A stretch of DNA of 62,055 nt from Nanohaloarchaea archaeon B1-Br10_U2g19 (GTDB lineage Archaea > Nanohalarchaeota > Nanosalinia > Nanosalinales > Nanosalinaceae), in contig LKMO01000003.1 in assembly GCA_001563905.1 (NCBI GenBank), forward strand, positions 1-62,055, given 5' to 3'. The notes below the pieces were generated by a model, which ran no database searches, was not told the DNA's origin, and saw only the letters and a list, made by a program, of their open reading frames with translations. This document shows positions 18,386 to 52,825 of the stretch, piece by piece. Positions within the stretch are counted from its first letter, which is position 1, and each line of letters opens with the position of its first letter. The position numbers and the translations under genes are program-made.

Positions 18386-19336
18386 ATGATAAGGAAAAAA
18401 GACGGAATCCATGTATACCAAGATGTAAAACATGTTTTGGACAGCCGTAACAGTATAGGAGACACTAACTTTGTCTCACATGCTCACTCTGACCACGCAT
18501 TCAAGAAAAACGGAGAAATCATATGCTCAAAGCTTACAGAGAAGCTTCTACAGAAACGTTTCAACGCAGATGTAAAACGTGTAGAACACGACTCCATACA
18601 GCTTATAGACTCCGGGCACATCCTAGGATCGTCAGCAGCACTTATAGACGGCAAAATTCTTTATACAGGCGATGTTTCAACCCGGGACAGAGCCTATATC
18701 GAAGGATTCCAGCCTGTTGAAGCTGAAGAACTTATTATAGAAGCAACTTATGGTATACCGGCTTACAGATTTCCAGACCAAGAAGAGATAGAGAGAAGTA
18801 TACAGGACTGGGTAGAGGAAAACAGTAATCCCTTGTTTCTTTTTGCTTACGCCTTAGGCAAGGCTCAGAAGATACAGTACCTAGTCCAGGAAGTAACTGA
18901 AAGACCTATAATCGCACACGGCTCCGTACTCAAAATGAACAACGTCCTAGAAAAACATACCGACCTAGAGTTCAACACCTTACCTTACAAGGAAAACAAA
19001 GATCTGTTAAAGGAGGACGGAATCTATATAGGGCCTACAAGCACCAGCAAAAAACAGTATATAAACAAGCTTGTAAGCCAAAACAACGGTTTGAAAGCCG
19101 GTTTCTCAGGCTGGGCTTTACACAACTCGATGGGTTACAGCCGTTACGACAAAGCATTTCCTTTCTCTGACCACTGCGACTTCAACGAACTTGTTGAGCT
19201 AGTGGAACAGGTTGAACCTGAAAAAGTCTATACACACCACGGCTTTGACGAACAGTTCGCATCATACTTGCGAAGAGAGAAAGGATTCAATGCACGAGCA
19301 CTGAAAAACAACCAAAGCTCTCTAACCGATTTCTAA
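18386..19336 (+). CDS. Metallo-beta-lactamase RNA-processing exonuclease (Ysh1-like)
   Basis: 316 residues of the MBL/beta-CASP superfamily. The first metal motif is SHAHSDHA (residues 31-38), with GSSAALIDG and YTGDVS following and a second histidine in FSDHCDFNEL near residue 270, then YTHHGF. The layout matches archaeal mRNA 3'-end processing-type proteins (COG1236). Likely a cytoplasmic nuclease; the exact substrate is unknown. A TATA-like TCTAATTAAAA precedes the ATG closely. Confidence 0.85.
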   Translation: MIRKKDGIHVYQDVKHVLDSRNSIGDTNFVSHAHSDHAFKKNGEIICSKLTEKLLQKRFNADVKRVEHDSIQLIDSGHILGSSAALIDGKILYTGDVSTRDRAYIEGFQPVEAEELIIEATYGIPAYRFPDQEEIERSIQDWVEENSNPLFLFAYALGKAQKIQYLVQEVTERPIIAHGSVLKMNNVLEKHTDLEFNTLPYKENKDLLKEDGIYIGPTSTSKKQYINKLVSQNNGLKAGFSGWALHNSMGYSRYDKAFPFSDHCDFNELVELVEQVEPEKVYTHHGFDEQFASYLRREKGFNARALKNNQSSLTDF

Positions 19337-19341
19337 ACAAT

Positions 19342-19776
19342 TTATTTGTTGAGGAACAGTCCATCTAACGCTGCGTCTACAAACTTGTCGAACTTTGACC
19401 GGAACAAGGGTTCAGCGTCTTCTATCGCCATTCTCCCTGTTGATGTGAACTGGGCTCCAAACTGTTTACGGGAGCTGTTTATTACATCGATATCTCTTTC
19501 TTGAAGCGCCTGGTTTATCTTCTTGTTTTCGTCTTTACCGTGTTGATCGAAATCGGTCAGTATTACTGTTCTAAGACTTCCTCTCTCTAAGTCTTCTGCT
19601 AAGTCTTCCAGTGTTTTTTCGGCTGAGAGAAAGATTTTGCCGTCAAAACCAAGTTTTCTGAGAACTCTTTTGTCATCTACTCCTTCAACTACCGCAGAGT
19701 CTACATCCTGGTTCAGTTTCTCCACCTCTTTCTCTAAAAGCTTTCTCTCTTTAAAGTTCTCGGGACTGGGATCCAT
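19342..19776 (-). CDS. Toprim domain protein (UPF0292/small-primase-like)
   Basis: 144 residues. VVEGVDDKRVL gives the Toprim glutamate and ILTDFDQHG the DxD motif, as in the small primase-like or RNase M5-like Toprim proteins common in archaea. The catalytic role is not known. Five bases separate its stop codon from that of the converging MBL gene. Confidence 0.85.
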   Translation of the reverse strand: MDPSPENFKERKLLEKEVEKLNQDVDSAVVEGVDDKRVLRKLGFDGKIFLSAEKTLEDLAEDLERGSLRTVILTDFDQHGKDENKKINQALQERDIDVINSSRKQFGAQFTSTGRMAIEDAEPLFRSKFDKFVDAALDGLFLNK

Positions 19777-19810: not shown

Positions 19811-20395
19811 ATGAACTCCAACACCGAACTCATAAACTATCTAAAGACCGGCGGCTACATCACATCTAAACGTGTAGAGGAGGCTTTCAGACAGGTTGAT
19901 AGATCAAAGTTCGTACCGGAAAAACATAAGGAGAGTCCTTACAAGGACTTACCTCTTTCTATAGCTGAAAACGCTACGATCTCTGCACCTCATATGGTCG
20001 CAGTAAATACAGAACTACTAGAAGTTAAACCTGGAAACACGGTTCTGGAGATAGGTTCAGGCTCAGGCTACCAGGCAGCAGTGCTTGGAGAGCTTGCTGA
20101 AAAAGTAGTCGGTATTGAAGTAAATCCGGAGCTTGTTGAAGAGTCAAGAAAACGCTTACAAGAAACAGAAAATGTTGAAATCATTGAAGGCTCAGATCTA
20201 AAACCTGTAAAAACAGTTTTTGAACGTATACTTTACTCTGTTGCAACAGAGTCTATAGAAAAATCTAAACAGTATTTGAAAGAAGATGGAGTCATAGTTG
20301 CTCCTATAAAACAGAACGGCTACCAAACATTAACTAGTTATAGAGACGGTGAAACCTCCGAACATGGAAGAGTAAGATTTGTTGAGATGGTTTAA
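19811..20395 (+). CDS. pcm: Protein-L-isoaspartate O-methyltransferase
   Basis: 194 residues. It repairs damaged aspartyl residues by SAM-dependent methylation. The AdoMet motif VLEIGSGSGYQAA (about 76-88), the upstream RSKFVPE and the SAPHM motif before it are all characteristic. The short ATG start has no Shine-Dalgarno sequence. Its stop shares TTAA with the converging nuclease-like gene. Confidence 0.95.
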   Translation: MNSNTELINYLKTGGYITSKRVEEAFRQVDRSKFVPEKHKESPYKDLPLSIAENATISAPHMVAVNTELLEVKPGNTVLEIGSGSGYQAAVLGELAEKVVGIEVNPELVEESRKRLQETENVEIIEGSDLKPVKTVFERILYSVATESIEKSKQYLKEDGVIVAPIKQNGYQTLTSYRDGETSEHGRVRFVEMV

Positions 20396-21606
20396 ACTTC
20401 TACTTTCTTACTTAGTTCAGGATTAACTGACTTACGGTAAAGGCTTTTCACAGAGTCTTTGTAGGCGTCATACGATTCAGTTATACCGTTATACTCTACT
20501 TTGAATCCTTGTTTAACTTTTACTTTGTGTTGGAAAATGTTCCCGTTTATTGTTCCTAGCTCTTTCCGGGAGTTGATCATCGCATCTTTCATCTTGGAGG
20601 CAGCTTTCTCAGGCATAACCACTTTAACAGCATGATCTATATCGTTTGAGCTTCTTACCTCCATCCTGTATCCGAAGCCGTGTTTGTCCCGTATCTTTAT
20701 CCCGTTGTCAGTATACTCTTTCTCTGTCTTTACCTTGGGTAGGAAGAGATCAGCTATCCTGTCAGGAGATATTATACCGGCTGTCTCCATTATCTCTTTC
20801 TCTACTTCTTCCGGCTGTAAGACATACCTTGATTCATGGTTTTGGAACGTGTTTATCGCGGCATAGTAGACCTGTTTATCCATTTTATCCAGTCTTTTCT
20901 TCACTTCCTCTACCTTGTTGTCCACGTTCTTTACAGCCTCCCAGGAGTAAGGTATATCGAACAGAAATGCTTTGTCTCGGTCTTTGTGAGTTACTACAGC
21001 GTCAACCGGTAGTTTGAAGTCATAACTGCTTAAAGGAGGTTTCTTGACTTGTAGGCCGATGTAGTCTGTCTCTATTTTTTCCAGTATATCTAATGCTTGG
21101 TTGAGTCTCTGTTCGAACGGTTTTACTGATCTGAACAGTAGTCTTGCCTGGCTCTGTGTCAGCTGTTTTCTTTCAATCATCTTTGATAGATCGCGGACTA
21201 CTTTATCTGTATCTGTGTATATTAGTTCTTTCTGTAGGAACTGGTGGAAGCTGTTGAACTTTACTGTTTCATAGTTTTCCAGTCTTTCGTTGCCGTTTGA
21301 GGTTACGAATATTCCTCGGAACCTGTAGTCTGAGAGCTCTCCTATCTCTAGTCCTATATCTATTGGATTGGATTTAAGCATGTCAATGTATTTCAGCATT
21401 CTTTCTCTGTCTTCTGAGTCCACTTCGGATTTGTTTTTTGCGTCTATTATCCAGATCTCTTTCTTGTTTTCTCGTGTGATTCGTGCGAAGCAGTCAGGTC
21501 TTGAGTCGTCGCTGAGGCTGCCTACTCTTTCAAAGAAGCTGAAGTATCCTTCGTACTGTCTCAGTACGTCTAGTACATCTCTTTGGAATACTTCCCAGTC
21601 GCTCAT
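20392..21606 (-). CDS. PD-(D/E)XK nuclease-like protein, unknown system
   Basis: 404 residues. The N-terminal ~110 residues carry a restriction-endonuclease-like core: helix, SRPDCFA (acidic Asp), then strand EIWIIDAKNK (D-x-K). The rest is helical followed by a beta-rich basic C-terminal part (about 290-404). Full-length homologs are not recognised. The start overlaps the stop codon of the upstream regulator by four bases (ATGA), so the two are translationally coupled. Possible roles are DNA defence, repair or processing; this is inference. Confidence 0.65.
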   Translation of the reverse strand: MSDWEVFQRDVLDVLRQYEGYFSFFERVGSLSDDSRPDCFARITRENKKEIWIIDAKNKSEVDSEDRERMLKYIDMLKSNPIDIGLEIGELSDYRFRGIFVTSNGNERLENYETVKFNSFHQFLQKELIYTDTDKVVRDLSKMIERKQLTQSQARLLFRSVKPFEQRLNQALDILEKIETDYIGLQVKKPPLSSYDFKLPVDAVVTHKDRDKAFLFDIPYSWEAVKNVDNKVEEVKKRLDKMDKQVYYAAINTFQNHESRYVLQPEEVEKEIMETAGIISPDRIADLFLPKVKTEKEYTDNGIKIRDKHGFGYRMEVRSSNDIDHAVKVVMPEKAASKMKDAMINSRKELGTINGNIFQHKVKVKQGFKVEYNGITESYDAYKDSVKSLYRKSVNPELSKKVEV

Positions 21607-22526
21607 TTAACTCCCTCTTTCTCTAGAACTTCGTAGCTGTCGATTTCTCCGTCACCATCTATGTCCTGTCCTTTAACTATGATGTAGGCCTCTTGGTTCA
21701 TGTATTGTTCTATAAGGTTTTCCAGGTTTTTGAATGCTATAACAGCTGCTTTCGTACCTTCGTTTCTTACACCGGCTACAAGGAAGAGTGAGCAGCTACT
21801 TTTTTCGGGGTGAACGGTTTTTGCGATTATACCTACTTTTTCTCCGGTGAAGCTTGATCTAGGTGTTTTTATCTCTCTGTAGGGGAACTCTTCTCCTTCG
21901 AAGCTTGCGGAGAACTCGTGGTTAAACTTTTTTGAAACAGTATTTGTCAGGACTCCGCCTAAGAGCAGCATGTTCTGGCTGTAGTTAGAGGACTTTACAA
22001 GCTCCGTATCTTTCACTACCACCTCATTTTTGGTTGTGGCGTAGCTTCCTAGTTTGAAACCTATTTCTCCTGCTAGATATCCGTCTCGTGCTCTTACTTG
22101 GTCTGGTCCGTGTCTGTCAGGTGATCCTACTACTATCTTACCGTTCAGCTCTCCGTTTTTTATCAACGGGTTAAGGAATTTTTTGACCTCCTCGCTTCTT
22201 TCTTTGAAGTCTGTCTTCTCTCCTTTTCCTCCGAAGTCGAGTATGAATCCTCCTGAAACCGGTCTGTAGTACGTGGCTAGCCCTCCTGAATGTTTTTCTT
22301 CACGGACTTTCTCTATTATCTCTGCCTGTTTCAGTATTTTGAAATGGTAGTGTGCTTTCTGTTTGCTTATACCAAGTTTTTCAGCTATGTTAGAAGGGTA
22401 GTCAGGTTTTTTGGCGAGGTTTTCCAGTATTTTTCTCCGTGTACCGTCTTTTACGGCTTTGAGTTTTTCTTGGTCTAGCTCTTTAGTGTCTACTAGTTCT
22501 CCGTTCTCTCTCAGAAACCCAGCCAT
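21603..22526 (-). CDS. ArsR-type winged-helix regulator with a large C-terminal sensor-like domain
   Basis: 307 residues. Residues ~20-95 are a winged helix (DGTRRKILENLAKKP, IAEKLGISKQKAHYHFKIL). The remaining ~200 residues include KIVVGSPDRHGPDQVR, NMLLLGGVLTNTVSKKF and an EF-hand-like calcium loop DIDGDGEIDSYEV near the C-terminus; the pattern recalls S-layer-type C-terminal domains, but this is uncertain. First gene of a two-gene operon with the nuclease-like protein. Two palindromes cover its promoter and start site, suggesting autoregulation. Confidence 0.75.
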   Translation of the reverse strand: MAGFLRENGELVDTKELDQEKLKAVKDGTRRKILENLAKKPDYPSNIAEKLGISKQKAHYHFKILKQAEIIEKVREEKHSGGLATYYRPVSGGFILDFGGKGEKTDFKERSEEVKKFLNPLIKNGELNGKIVVGSPDRHGPDQVRARDGYLAGEIGFKLGSYATTKNEVVVKDTELVKSSNYSQNMLLLGGVLTNTVSKKFNHEFSASFEGEEFPYREIKTPRSSFTGEKVGIIAKTVHPEKSSCSLFLVAGVRNEGTKAAVIAFKNLENLIEQYMNQEAYIIVKGQDIDGDGEIDSYEVLEKEGVK

Positions 22527-22528
22527 TA

Positions 22529-22550
22529 AAACATGTTTAATACCGGTATT
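22529..22550. promoter_or_regulatory. Paired palindromic operator over the regulator promoter
   Basis: Two perfect palindromes sit side by side, AAACATGTTT (22529-22538) and AATACCGGTATT (22539-22550), just before the regulator start codon at 22526. A minus-strand TATA-like element (CTTATAATACC, 22546-22555) overlaps the second. Position and symmetry suggest binding of the dimeric regulator. Confidence 0.6.
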
Positions 22551-22624
22551 ATAAGTGTTTTACTGTTGGTGTTGAAACATTAATAAACAAGGCCTGAACC
22601 GGTAAAAACAGTTTGTTAGACGTA

Positions 22625-22634
22625 TTTTATAATA
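22625..22634 (+). promoter_or_regulatory. TATA box of glmS
   Basis: TTTTATAATA is centred about 30 bases before the glmS ATG. Confidence 0.5.
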
Positions 22635-22659: not shown

Positions 22660-24390
22660 ATGTGCGGGATAGTCTGTTACACCGGCGAAAAAAACGCTTC
22701 TAAAGTAATAAAGAAAGGTCTGGAGAAACTGGAGTACAGAGGCTACGACTCCGCAGGCATAGCCACCGTAGGAAACCCTTCCCTCAAAGTAAGTAAAGGT
22801 GAAGGCACAATAAACCAGGTTCTCAACAAAGAACTTGACGGAAACACAGGAATAGGACATACAAGATGGGCGACACACGGAAAAGTAAACAAAACCAACG
22901 CACACCCGCATACCTGCAGTAAAGAAAAGATAGCTGTCGTACACAACGGGATAATAGACAACCACGAAGAACTTAGAAAAGAGCTAGGTGAGGAACGTTT
23001 CAAGTCCGAAACAGATACAGAAGTAATACCTCACCTCATAGAAGAACAACTAAAAAAGACAGACGACCTGGAAAAACTCTGTAGAAACGTTATAAATAAG
23101 TTAGAAGGATCTTATGCAGCAGTAGCAGTTCTAGATACGGGAGAAAAAATAGCTTTCAGAAAAGGATCGCCGTTAGTACTAGGCGTGGGAGAAGACGAAT
23201 ACTTCCTAACATCTGACGTAACACCTTTCCTTGAACATACACGGAAAGCAGTCTTCCTAGAGGAAGAAGACTACGTAATAATAAAAGACGACTACCAGAT
23301 CTACAACTCCGGAGAAAAAATAGATAGAGAAGTAAAACAGGTTGACTGGAACGCTGAACAAGCCTCCAAAAAAGGCTACGACCACTACATGCATAAAGAG
23401 ATAGAAGAACAGACAGAAACCGTTAAACGCGCAGCATTCCAAGACAGGAAAGACCTTCAGAAAGCTGTAAAACTTATTGAAGAAGCTGAAAAAGTCTACA
23501 TAACAGGCTGCGGAACATCAAGCTTCGCAGCTGAACTCGGAGCATCCTATCTAAGAGAAACCGGTACCGATGTGGAGGTAGAGCAAGCTCACGAACTAGA
23601 GTACAGAAAAGACGAGATCAGTGAAGACGATTTAGTTATAAGTATGAGTCAGAGCGGTGAGACCGCTGACCTACTGTCACTTCTAAACAAGGTTGATGCG
23701 GAAACACTCGCCATAGTAAACGTTGTAGGCTCGACACTTGACAGAAACTCCAGACAGTCTCTCTACATAAATGCAGGCCCAGAGATCGGAGTAGCCTCCA
23801 CAAAAGCATTTACCGGACAGTTAACAGTGCTGAAACTTTTACAGTATGCATTAGAAGATAAGACAGAAGAGGGAAGGAAAGAACTAGTACAAACATCTGA
23901 AAAGATAAGTGAAACACTTGAAAACAGTAGAGAAACCGTAAGAGAAGCTAGTAAATACCTCAGCGACAAAGAAGACGTATACTTTATAGGACGTCATAGA
24001 TCTCGTTTCGTAAGTAAAGAAGCCTCTCTAAAACTGAAGGAAATATCCTACATCCATTCAGAGGCTTTCCCTGGCGGCGAGTTCAAACACGGAACCTTGG
24101 CCTTAGTAGAACAAGGAACTCCTGTAATCGGTATCCTCACAGGTAAAGGAGAGAACGACACCCTTTCCAACCTAGTTGAAGCTAAAAGCCGTGGAGCCGA
24201 CATAATAGGTATAGGAACCGAAGAAAAAACCGGTTTCAAACATTTCATAGAGATTCCTGAAGATTCCAACACCGAGATACTTGAAACAGTTGTCTTCCAG
24301 CTTCTAGCATACCGTACAGCTTTGAACCGTGATAAAGATATCAACCCGGACAGACCTCGAAACCTGGCTAAAAGCGTAACAGTAAAATAA
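22660..24390 (+). CDS. glmS: Glutamine--fructose-6-phosphate aminotransferase
   Basis: 576 residues. It makes glucosamine-6-phosphate, the first committed step to UDP-GlcNAc. The N-terminal glutaminase begins MCGIVCYTG with C2 as nucleophile; TRWATHGK and HNGIIDNHEEL are present. Two SIS sugar-isomerase domains follow (ITGCGTSSFAAELG; EISYIHSEAFPGGEFKHG), and the C-terminus LAKSVTVK is intact. The other steps of the route are encoded at 48642 (GlmU) and probably 50319 (phosphomutase). The downstream gene follows after 23 bases. Confidence 0.97.
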   Translation: MCGIVCYTGEKNASKVIKKGLEKLEYRGYDSAGIATVGNPSLKVSKGEGTINQVLNKELDGNTGIGHTRWATHGKVNKTNAHPHTCSKEKIAVVHNGIIDNHEELRKELGEERFKSETDTEVIPHLIEEQLKKTDDLEKLCRNVINKLEGSYAAVAVLDTGEKIAFRKGSPLVLGVGEDEYFLTSDVTPFLEHTRKAVFLEEEDYVIIKDDYQIYNSGEKIDREVKQVDWNAEQASKKGYDHYMHKEIEEQTETVKRAAFQDRKDLQKAVKLIEEAEKVYITGCGTSSFAAELGASYLRETGTDVEVEQAHELEYRKDEISEDDLVISMSQSGETADLLSLLNKVDAETLAIVNVVGSTLDRNSRQSLYINAGPEIGVASTKAFTGQLTVLKLLQYALEDKTEEGRKELVQTSEKISETLENSRETVREASKYLSDKEDVYFIGRHRSRFVSKEASLKLKEISYIHSEAFPGGEFKHGTLALVEQGTPVIGILTGKGENDTLSNLVEAKSRGADIIGIGTEEKTGFKHFIEIPEDSNTEILETVVFQLLAYRTALNRDKDINPDRPRNLAKSVTVK

Positions 24391-24413: not shown

Positions 24414-24902
24414 ATGAAAGGAAAAAAGAAACTTTCCGTACTTCTAATCGTTTCAGCAATGTTTACTTTAACGGTTTCAGCTGAAACAGTGGACTGGACG
24501 GAGTCTGACTTCGAATATATCCATGATAATCTTGAGGTAACTGAGCTACAGGAAGAGATAAACAGTAACCAAGATGATATACCAAGTTTTGCTGCCCGTA
24601 TCATAGGAGACCAGAGAATGAATATCTACTTCCAAGAGACAGGAGCTGTCTACTCAGCAGTTATGGATGGGACAGAAGTTGAACAGCTTCAACGGGAAGC
24701 GGTTGAAGACCCTACCTTAGAGGTAGAGGTTGATGAGTCGAGTGTTGACGCGATTATTTCCTCTGAAAGCTCTATAGAAGAGCTTAAAAACCAGTTAGAT
24801 GACGGAGGAATAAGTTACGAAGCTAAAACACGGACCAACCAAGTTAAAATGTTTATAACTGAAAGAGTTGTAGATATTCTTTCAAGGTTCAGCGTCCTGT
24901 AA
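24414..24902 (+). CDS. Secreted protein, possibly SCP2-like fold
   Basis: 162 residues with a signal peptide (hydrophobic 7-23, cleavage near SAET). The mature part (MNIYFQETG, DPTLEVEVDESSVDAI, SSIEELKNQLDDGGISYEA) resembles archaeal SCP2-type lipid-binding domains; this is a weak, pattern-based assignment. It follows glmS by 23 bases and is probably cotranscribed, hinting at an envelope role. Its end overlaps the converging MBL gene by 21 bases. Confidence 0.6.
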   Translation: MKGKKKLSVLLIVSAMFTLTVSAETVDWTESDFEYIHDNLEVTELQEEINSNQDDIPSFAARIIGDQRMNIYFQETGAVYSAVMDGTEVEQLQREAVEDPTLEVEVDESSVDAIISSESSIEELKNQLDDGGISYEAKTRTNQVKMFITERVVDILSRFSVL

Positions 24903-25550
24903 AACCAGTACCTCTTTCTCTACATTTTCTTTAAACTTTTCAGGATCTGCCTCTGTACCGTCAACCACGCCGTAATGCATAGGAACAACTCTTTCAGGTT
25001 CAATCATGTCTACAGCTTCCAAAGCCTCTTCTTGGTTCATTGTATACTTTCCTCCTATAGGCAGAAAAGCTAAACCAATATCTTCATCTTTAAGCTGCTC
25101 CATCTCCGGCACCGAATCAGTATCTGAAGCATAGTATATCTTCAAACCGTCTAGCTCAAAGACTAGTCCTACACAGAAGCCTTTAGGATGGAAAGGCATG
25201 TTCTCTTCTCTAAACTTGTCTATATTGTATGCTTCAACGCCTCTGAAAACTACGCCTCCAGCTTCTACACTGGATCCTGTCTCAATAATTTTATGCTCTA
25301 AATCTTCCGGAACACTGTCTTCAGACTGTTTAGTACACAACAAGAGAGTATCTTCTTTTCTAAGCTTCTCTATAGCCTCTAAATCGAAATGGTCAAAATG
25401 GTCGTGTGTAGATACAATAATATCCGCTTTCTCAAACTCGTCTATTACTTCCAACCACGGATCGATATAAACTGTTTTACTCGGAGTTTGAAGCTTTATA
25501 CTGGCATGGCCTAGAAGCTCTACTTCAACACCGTTGACTTCTGTCTTCAT
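24882..25550 (-). CDS. MBL-fold hydrolase (UlaG-like)
   Basis: 222 residues of the beta-lactamase-like superfamily. The metal motif THDHFDHFD (near 47-55), ASDTDS and MHYG are all intact, so it is probably an active metal-dependent hydrolase. The substrate is unknown. A related but degenerate copy lies 48 bases upstream on the same strand. Confidence 0.88.
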   Translation of the reverse strand: MKTEVNGVEVELLGHASIKLQTPSKTVYIDPWLEVIDEFEKADIIVSTHDHFDHFDLEAIEKLRKEDTLLLCTKQSEDSVPEDLEHKIIETGSSVEAGGVVFRGVEAYNIDKFREENMPFHPKGFCVGLVFELDGLKIYYASDTDSVPEMEQLKDEDIGLAFLPIGGKYTMNQEEALEAVDMIEPERVVPMHYGVVDGTEADPEKFKENVEKEVLVLQDAEP

Positions 25551-25598: not shown

Positions 25599-26231
25599 TT
25601 ATGTATGAGACCTCAAGAGTTTACATCCAATACTTCTATCCTCTAGCTCGGCTTTCAAAACGTTTACATCAACTTTTTCACTGAAGAACGGCTCGCCGTA
25701 ATGATACGGCACTACTACACGGGGTTTGATTCTAACTGCGGCGTTTACAGCACCGTCCAAATCCATGGTGTTTACACCGTCTACAGGCAAGAAACAGATA
25801 TCTACACGTCCTTCTAAATCATGCATACTTTCTGTAGAACGTATATCTCCTGAGACGTAGAAGCTTGTACCTCTCATTACGAAACGGTAGCCTATACCTT
25901 GAGACTCCTGGTTTTCAAGCGGTACTGCTTCGATTTCGATACCGAAGATATCTATAACCTCGTTCTCCTCTATATACTCAACATCGTTACAAGGAACACT
26001 GTAAGACTCCATAGACTTCGGGGCTACAACACAGGTTCTGTCTGTACAAAGTTTTTCAACAAGGTCCCGGTCGTAATGTTTCTCATCAGGCTGAGTGATC
26101 AAGACTAGATCTGCTTCCTCAACATCGGAAACCTTTGAATGCGGATCTACAACAACAGTAAATCCTTCATCAACTATCTTTACCGATCCATGTCCCTCCC
26201 AGTAGACTTCAAAACCTTTGTACTCGAACAA
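25599..26231 (-). CDS. MBL-fold protein with a degenerate metal site
   Basis: 210 residues, paralogous in layout to its neighbour at 24882 (shared EGHGSVKI-type start, FLPVDGVNTMDLDGAV and YHYGEPFF). In place of the HxHxDH motif it has ITQPDEKHYDRD, with only one histidine left, and GDIRSTE instead of SDTDS. It may have lost hydrolase activity or bind metal differently. It is upstream of the intact paralog on the same strand. Confidence 0.8.
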   Translation of the reverse strand: MFEYKGFEVYWEGHGSVKIVDEGFTVVVDPHSKVSDVEEADLVLITQPDEKHYDRDLVEKLCTDRTCVVAPKSMESYSVPCNDVEYIEENEVIDIFGIEIEAVPLENQESQGIGYRFVMRGTSFYVSGDIRSTESMHDLEGRVDICFLPVDGVNTMDLDGAVNAAVRIKPRVVVPYHYGEPFFSEKVDVNVLKAELEDRSIGCKLLRSHT

Positions 26232-26920: not shown

Positions 26921-27454
26921 TCAAGCAGTTACGTTTCTACAGTTCCATAGTCCTTTTTCTTGTTCTTGGGCTTTCTGCTCTGCTTCTTCAAAACTTTCTT
27001 TTCCATCAAACTCTACAGGAAACACGTTCGCATAACCTTTCTCAACCAGTTTATAATTCAGAGTGTTGTTCGTGTCTTGTAAGTGTATATGTGCTCTTAG
27101 TCGTCCGTACTGGTCTCTTCTGTCACCTTCAAACTCTAGTTCTATTTTGTCTCCCGGACTTACTTCTTGTTTGACGTAGCTTGTTGATTTTTCTGCCCAT
27201 ATGTAGAGACACTGTTCTGTTTCCGGCGTATCTTCTAGTCCGAAATGTAAGGGGTTGTTTCCGCCGTGTATCTCCGGTGTGTCCATACCTATAAACCGTA
27301 CTGACTCGTTTCTGTCATGTATATTTACTTTTATGGTGTCTCCGTCGATCACTCTTACTAGTTCTGCCTCAGTTTTATCTTCTGGAGAGTAGTTCTGGTC
27401 GAGAAGAAAAACAGAAACTGTTATGATTAGAGCTAGTATTACTGCTTTCTTCAT
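26921..27454 (-). CDS. Secreted thermonuclease (staphylococcal nuclease homolog)
   Basis: 177 residues; hydrophobic N-terminus (3-19) acts as signal peptide or anchor. The SNase core is intact: VIDGDTIKV (Asp), VRFIGMDTPEI (Arg and Glu) and RDQYGRLRA (second Arg). It probably degrades extracellular DNA or RNA, a plausible source of nucleotides for a host-dependent or scavenging archaeon (inference). The membrane-protein gene 13 bases upstream is on the same strand. Confidence 0.92.
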   Translation of the reverse strand: MKKAVILALIITVSVFLLDQNYSPEDKTEAELVRVIDGDTIKVNIHDRNESVRFIGMDTPEIHGGNNPLHFGLEDTPETEQCLYIWAEKSTSYVKQEVSPGDKIELEFEGDRRDQYGRLRAHIHLQDTNNTLNYKLVEKGYANVFPVEFDGKESFEEAEQKAQEQEKGLWNCRNVTA

Positions 27455-52297: not shown

Positions 52298-52825
52298 ATG
52301 GAGATAGATTTCAAAACAGTAAGAGCTCTTTCATCACCTACAAGAGTTAGGATACTTCATGAACTTTTGGAGAAAGAGTCTACACCTACAGGACTAAGCA
52401 AGAAAACCGGTAAAAGCAAGTCTACTGTCTCAGCACATCTATCTACTCTCCATGAGTCAGGGCTGATAGATAAAGATTCTAAGGAAGGTAGGAAAAGAGT
52501 TGTTTACAGTCCAACAGATAAGGCTAAAGCAATAGTGAACGGTAAAGAGAGAAAAGTTAAGTTCTCAATAGCCTCGTCTATTATTTCAGCATTCACAGGT
52601 TTAACCTTGGCATATGAAGGAGTAAACCGTTTGAACTTTCTGGCAGATGATGCTATGGAGTCAGTAGACATGGAGGCAGAGATGGCTGCAGACACTGCTG
52701 CAGAAACAGGTTTTGAAACCGGATCCATGCTGTTTTCCGGAGAGATATTCCTGTTTATCGGTTTCGGACTACTTACTTTCTCGGTACTGGCATTCCTTTA
52801 TGGATATACGGTTAGAAAAATATAA
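52298..52825 (+). CDS. ArsR-type regulator with a membrane anchor
   Basis: 175 residues. Residues 1-75 form an ArsR winged helix (ALSSPTRVRILHELL, LSKKTGKSKSTVSAHLSTLHES). Two hydrophobic helices follow (about 90-105 and 148-170), with an acidic extracellular loop (ESVDMEAEMAADTAAETG) between them. A membrane-tethered transcription factor is implied; the signal is unknown. Confidence 0.8.
   Translation: MEIDFKTVRALSSPTRVRILHELLEKESTPTGLSKKTGKSKSTVSAHLSTLHESGLIDKDSKEGRKRVVYSPTDKAKAIVNGKERKVKFSIASSIISAFTGLTLAYEGVNRLNFLADDAMESVDMEAEMAADTAAETGFETGSMLFSGEIFLFIGFGLLTFSVLAFLYGYTVRKI

Follow-up and report, generated by a model that had tools for sequence, protein, structure and literature searches.

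The window analysed here, a 62,055-nucleotide stretch of Nanohaloarchaea archaeon B1-Br10_U2g19 (assembly GCA_001563905.1, contig LKMO01000003.1), carries a two-gene operon made up of a winged-helix regulator, which we call REG, and a nuclease-like gene, which we call NUC. Divergent from this operon lies glmS, the gene for glutamine-fructose-6-phosphate transaminase, and the REG–glmS pair is apparently a widespread archaeal gene switch that is new to the literature. We put the probability at roughly 0.72 that REG controls the amino-sugar (UDP-N-acetylglucosamine, UDP-GlcNAc) pathway by repressing the REG–NUC operon and most likely activating glmS, with NUC as a passenger that is probably a PD-(D/E)XK protein. 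The reaction catalysed by GlmS is the first committed step to UDP-GlcNAc, which goes into N-glycans, S-layers and further glycans of the cell surface. We know of no described archaeal counterpart to the bacterial glmS switches, and a regulator that consists of one gene, together with its defined operator, makes the control of archaeal amino-sugar flux directly testable. An original prediction, made from the DNA letters of this stretch, had described the locus as an autoregulated regulator–nuclease operon; its coordinates, its protein lengths and the 4-bp overlap of the two genes hold, and the nuclease gene has become the lesser part of the finding.

The gene architecture, the conserved synteny, the conserved operator and the operator positions are all computational observations. 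REG was counted by profile (E <= 1e-20) in a sample of 394 archaeal genomes and was found in 96 of them, with named hosts among the Nanohaloarchaea, Aenigmatarchaeota, Woesearchaeota, Diapherotrites, Nanoarchaeota and many Bathyarchaeota, as well as Caldarchaeum and Pelearchaeum. Its nearest named relative is found in Nanohaloarchaea archaeon B1-Br10_U2g1, where REG is 70% identical. Neighbourhoods were taken from 33 + 38 + 60 loci, and the removal of near-identical copies left 119 REG genes with a readable upstream neighbour. In 80 of these 119 non-redundant cases glmS is the immediate divergent neighbour, in 102 glmS, glmM or glmU lies within the fetched stretch, and at several loci REG is followed on its upstream side by glmS-glmM-glmU in that order. 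In the case of glmM and the archaeal glmU, some members scored over the NCBIfam cut-off and others fell below it, their best-matching family being the same. The constant partner of REG is glmS. A second clade of REG paralogues (L069, L087, L194, L195, L201 and L203) adjoins glmU and glmM, not glmS, and both paralogues are present together in some genomes. A literature search limited to open-access sources found no description of an archaeal glmS regulator or of this PF05124 regulator family (PF05124 being the second domain of REG). The original prediction had not recognised the regulator and nuclease pair as a described system. PF05124 was present in only 2 of 14 control genomes, those of Thermotoga maritima and Methanocaldococcus jannaschii, which suggests that REG, spread as it is across DPANN and Bathyarchaeota, is probably lacking in the standard model species of archaeal genetics (Haloferax volcanii, Sulfolobus acidocaldarius and Methanosarcina acetivorans). 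Such an absence would account for its having gone unnoticed in genetics.

The intergenic region shared by REG and glmS (133 bp in the window) holds the operator, a 28-bp palindrome, AACCANTAAAAAANNTTTTTTANTGGTT, which is found from DPANN to Bathyarchaeota. Palindrome-constrained expectation maximization on 40 REG–glmS intergenic regions gave a log-likelihood ratio of 439, compared with 71-90 in shuffled sequences, and the best site reached p <= 0.05 against shuffles in 27 of 33 intergenic regions outside the training set. Three sites were placed in the window (Table 1). With a matrix derived from the family's other genomes, the window itself being excluded, site 1 is the best in the whole 663-kb genome (23.6 bits), site 2 the second best (20.3 bits) and site 3 the 15th (14.0 bits). 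The offset between sites 1 and 2 corresponds to two helical turns and is seen again in relatives. The third-best site in the genome (L215:7170-7197, 20.0 bits) lies directly before a tRNA-Met gene, probably by chance, and in a scan for a wider regulon the sites ranked after it fall inside coding sequences; a strict-pattern search of the same genome gave no match, the pattern being too strict. Within this genome the operator appears to be almost restricted to the one intergenic region.

This result can be set against the double palindromic operator that had originally been proposed. Both palindromes, AAACATGTTT at 22529-22538 and AATACCGGTATT at 22539-22550, are real and stand at the REG promoter, directly adjoining each other next to the REG start codon, but they are not independent, as together they make up the centre of site 1 and the half-site common to sites 1 and 2. 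Counted over the 663-kb genome the two fare differently: AATACCGGTATT is unique (1 copy, 0.07 expected from base composition), whereas AAACATGTTT has 6 copies (1.6 expected) and is not special by itself. The promoter region over which they lie is shared with divergent glmS, a gene missing from that account. What does stand is an operon with an operator over its own promoter, sites 1 and 2 being the genome's best, and a predicted palindromic operator in this position is what would be expected of an ArsR-type regulator.

The position of the operator relative to the two promoters gives an indication of the sign of regulation. In most loci the sites cover the REG TATA box and start, and those on the glmS side are mostly upstream of the inferred glmS TATA box. 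We infer that the winged helix of REG, probably as a dimer, binds the 28-bp palindrome; on sites 1 and 2 it would block basal factors at its own TATA box and start, which points to autorepression and hence to repression of NUC too. The position of the inferred REG TATA box makes the REG transcript look leaderless. On the other side of the region, 15 of the 27 sites found within 60 nt upstream of the glmS TATA box in a first set of loci lie at 19-22 nt, where about 1.8 would be expected (the chance of this position being 4/61 per site), and so do 5 of the 10 upstream sites in an independent set. A fixed distance of this kind suits an activator. From its position shortly upstream of the glmS TATA box, REG would most likely activate glmS in the manner of P. 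furiosus CopR; at copR the footprint of that protein displaces basal factors, whereas at the divergent copA, the gene activated by CopR, it sits upstream of them (PMC7830388).

Several points weigh against this reading. T. onnurineus CopR has been reported as a repressor of both of its genes (PMC7830388), the TATA boxes in our analysis are inferred calls from a consensus scan, 6 of the 33 independent intergenic regions have no significant operator site, and 17 of the 119 REG genes lack a gene of the pathway in their vicinity. In the window itself only about 1 nt separates the glmS-side site from the TATA box, instead of 20 nt, and this abutting position, together with the weak right half of site 3, makes repression of glmS possible in this genome. 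REG might instead repress both itself and glmS, with UDP-GlcNAc or a sugar phosphate acting as the end-product signal. Operators span the whole of the short intergenic region, site 3 would cover the B recognition element (BRE) of glmS, and ArsR-type proteins are mostly repressors. Dual repression is nevertheless doubtful, though it deserves serious weight, as the glmS-side operator in most lineages does not lie over the TATA box or start but 19-22 nt upstream of the TATA box, where an activator would be placed.

Table 1 Features of the REG–glmS locus and its surroundings (positions in the window).
Feature	Position	Strand	Remarks
REG	21603..22526	-	307-aa one-component regulator; winged helix residues 27-74, S_layer_C-type domain about 113-303
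Conserved sensor motif specific to REG, GSPDRHGPDQVRARDGY	22077..22127	-	Residues 134-150, with H139 and D148 invariant and H at position 150 in 31/32
DIDGDGEID loop, EF-hand-like	21639..21665	-	REG residues 288-296; DxDGDGxxD invariant in 32/32
Operator site 1, AGCCATTAAAACATGTTTAATACCGGTA	22521..22548		Spans the start codon of REG and its inferred transcription start; 20.1 bits, archaea-wide matrix
Operator site 2, TACCGGTATTATAAGTGTTTTACTGTTG	22541..22568		20-bp offset from site 1; covers REG TATA box
Operator site 3, AACCGGTAAAAACAGTTTGTTAGACGTA	22597..22624		Right half weaker; ends about 1 bp before glmS TATA box; 15.9 bits, archaea-wide matrix
REG TATA box, CTTATAAT	22548..22555	-	Inferred, consensus scan
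glmS TATA box, TTTATAAT	22626..22633	+	Inferred, consensus scan
glmS (glutamine-fructose-6-phosphate transaminase)	22660..24390	+	576 aa; divergent to REG; TIGR01135 618 bits, equivalog cut-off 418
NUC	20392..21606	-	404-aa nuclease-like protein; 4-bp overlap with REG (21603-21606)
Putative PD-(D/E)XK active site of NUC	21436..21531	-	E26, R36-P37-D38, D55-A-K57
Small Toprim protein, PRK04017-like	19342..19776	-	In relatives, frequently follows NUC directly
Metallo-beta-lactamase exonuclease, ligase-associated type	18386..19336	+	TIGR04122-like, 174.8 bits, under 325 cut-off

REG combines a DNA-binding domain of a common type with a less expected partner. Its winged helix is ArsR-type (HTH_20, 41.8 bits with a cut-off of 27; HTH_5, 35.4 bits with a cut-off of 22), and the metal-sensing ArsR/SmtB subfamily profile NF033788 scored 36.3 bits, under its cut-off of 55. 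The remaining domain of about 200 residues, originally called unassigned, is in fact S_layer_C (PF05124, 27.8 bits against a curated cut-off of 23.9). Among 29 diverse REG orthologues, HTH_20 was matched in all and S_layer_C in 28 (E <= 0.1), and the REG profile also matched the solved S-layer protein PDB 9fsa (E 1.2e-5). An AlphaFold2 (AF2) model built from 32 orthologues reached a mean predicted local distance difference test score (pLDDT) of 85.1 and a predicted TM-score (pTM) of 0.65. In Foldseek searches the winged helix was matched to PH1932 (2cwe/1uly, E 8e-5) and other ArsR proteins, and the sensor domain gave weak matches alone, to BcsB and the GH67 alpha-glucuronidase (E 4e-4 to 9e-4, low TM); these were not taken as pointers to the ligand of REG. 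That REG is itself an S-layer protein was rejected on its length of 307 aa and on its N-terminus, MAGFLRENGELVD, which leads directly into the winged helix, no signal-peptide program having been run. A second winged-helix protein is encoded in the window at 52301-52726 (+), 25% identical to REG over residues 16-161, and weak matches to the helix-turn-helix part only in other genomes of the family may be relatives.

Conservation within the sensor domain can be used to choose candidate ligand-site residues. Across 32 aligned archaeal REG orthologues, G134-S135-P136, H139-G140, D148, D173, N195 and N202 are invariant, and so are D288, D290, G291, D292, G293 and D296 of the EF-hand-like loop, which is present as first described. 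The loop is degenerate in at least some members of the second paralogue clade, L069 among them. The HGP and DxDGDG motifs have no counterpart in the aligned stretches of the two S-layer proteins on which the comparison is based, so they look regulator-specific and may mark a ligand site. The original notion of a sensing switch fares well here, with an invariant DxDGDG loop in what is probably a one-component sensor. The signal would probably be taken up by the S_layer_C-type domain, and the candidates for it are a divalent ion such as Ca2+ at the DxDGDG loop, a ligand related to the S-layer or a product of the amino-sugar pathway.

For a transcription factor, an S-layer-type domain in the sensing role would be unusual. 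At one locus (L198:1268-3805, -) an 845-aa S-layer protein with a split S_layer_C domain (57-838) is encoded directly beside REG and glmS, the sole S-layer gene beside REG among the neighbours scanned with Pfam. In a more far-reaching idea, REG is an ancient archaeal sensor with a co-opted S-layer domain that reads the surface-building state in the cell and matches UDP-GlcNAc supply to S-layer assembly. We offer it tentatively and consider it unlikely; if it were true, REG would read an S-layer glycan donor, a precursor or Ca2+, from DPANN to Bathyarchaeota. As for the envelope-stress module once suggested for this locus, the envelope link is the part that is plausible, by way of UDP-GlcNAc supply and an S-layer-related sensor. 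The genome of the window also has a 224-aa open frame bearing S_layer_C (G000:C21:62201-62653), a candidate S-layer gene fragment.

NUC has a far narrower distribution. It occurs in 15 of the 394 archaeal genomes, all in the window's family, with none found outside it in that sample, and on this distribution it is an add-on of one family. The pairing with REG is conserved in relatives: NUC lies directly downstream of REG in 15/15 cases, with a gap of -8 to +29 bp and the 4-bp overlap in most, and it occupies one syntenic site as a single-copy gene. Mapped on the REG tree, the genomes with NUC require two state changes, consistent with a single gain and a single loss (G005). The original prediction that the switch controls a nuclease is supported in that a nuclease-like partner stands in the operon, but nuclease control as the point of the switch finds no support, since REG is so much wider (96/394 against 15/394 genomes) and has glmS as its constant partner (80/119).

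The PD...DAK residues first noted in NUC can be followed through its 15 orthologues, in which PD is invariant and DAK nearly so, one having DMK. E26, R36, P37, D38, D55 and K57 stay unchanged in all of them, even at 39% identity to the NUC of the window, which fits a PD-(D/E)XK site. PDDEXK_7 matched NUC below its cut-off (E 0.02), as it did in 7/15 members, and PHROGs and NCBIfam gave nothing credible. NUC is probably a PD-(D/E)XK protein. It might instead have lost nuclease activity, or never had it, and act as a cofactor or anti-regulator of REG. The strict linkage to REG would suit such a role, as would a fold left unconfirmed both by hhalign, with no match to PDDEXK_7 (three template sequences only), and by a single-sequence AF2 model that was unusable (pLDDT 32), but E26, D38, D55 and K57 are conserved as an active site would be, and we regard this as distinctly unlikely.

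The genes beside NUC bear on what it might do. A Toprim gene lies within three genes after NUC in 11/15 loci, separated from it in the window by PCMT on the other strand, and the metallo-beta-lactamase exonuclease gene is close by; such neighbours make a nucleic-acid-processing role for NUC more likely than defence. NUC could thus be a DNA-repair or nucleic-acid-processing enzyme that lies downstream of REG and shares its promoter by accident, a view that also suits the single gain in one family. Its chances are only a little short of even; the tight 4-bp overlap and retention in 15/15 genomes argue against it, for some benefit of co-expression with REG. As a separate observation, exonuclease and Toprim genes occur near REG–NUC in most genomes of the family and may form a nucleic-acid-processing cluster. 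Our preferred reading treats NUC as a lineage-specific passenger in the REG operon.

A regulator–nuclease module for defence or stress, as first proposed, would gain from the 15/15 adjacency, the 4-bp overlap in most members, the conserved putative active-site residues and the weak Csa3/CARF-type PADLOC matches of REG, although these are mainly limited to the helix-turn-helix part. It has become very improbable: REG occurs without NUC over most of its range, NUC is present as one copy at a syntenic position across the family and no mobile or defence neighbours were seen, PADLOC has no family for NUC (best DpdE, E 0.026), and the constant partner is glmS. The PADLOC null and the non-mobile, one-site distribution in 15 genomes speak against an anti-phage defence system, and a toxin–antitoxin module was rejected on the sizes of 307 and 404 aa, the fixed family locus and the wide occurrence of REG without NUC.

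Some other genes in the window can be mentioned. Metal-dependent-hydrolase genes at 24882-25550 and 25599-26231 (-) recur beside glmS in the family, the first being PRK00685-like (133.9 bits, just under the 144 cut-off). By eye, 26921-27454 (-) appears to encode a small exported thermonuclease-like protein with a VIDGDTIKV motif.

Comparison with known systems helps to separate what is familiar from what is not. In bacteria, glmS is controlled by the glmS ribozyme-riboswitch, by the small RNAs GlmY/GlmZ and by NagC. These act on the same enzyme and step, but are RNA-based or of the ROK family, and none is related to REG. For the winged helix the closest protein is PH1932 (1uly, 2cwe) of Pyrococcus horikoshii, which ranks first among PDB entries both by sequence (E 5.8e-16) and by fold (0.8 A over 75 columns, 33% identity); the match ends after the winged helix, and S_layer_C has no match in PH1932. 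S-layer proteins of the PF05124/TIGR01564 type, for example in Methanocaldococcus, share LxGGPxxN and G(L/I)I...NP...AG with the REG sensor, whereas REG is short, starts with a DNA-binding domain and has the invariant HGP...D.H and DxDGDG motifs. NUC aligns with PDDEXK_7 (PF04411) over the catalytic PD...DAK part, which reads PDYSI...HFDAKYR in the archaeal members inspected, but the score is below the cut-off (15.4 against 22.1 bits) and no profile-profile match was found with three members. The nearest regulatory parallel is P. furiosus CopR, which combines autorepression with activation of a divergent gene and uses a semi-palindromic motif directly upstream of the BRE (PMC7830388). REG is likewise divergent from its main target, with the operator over its own TATA box and start and upstream of the target TATA box, but CopR belongs to another protein family, has copper as its ligand and another motif, and acts at about 10 target promoters (PMC7830388). 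A winged-helix one-component regulator divergent from its target is of an already known kind; what appears to be new is that the sensor is of S-layer type, that the target is glmS and that the system extends across DPANN and Bathyarchaeota.

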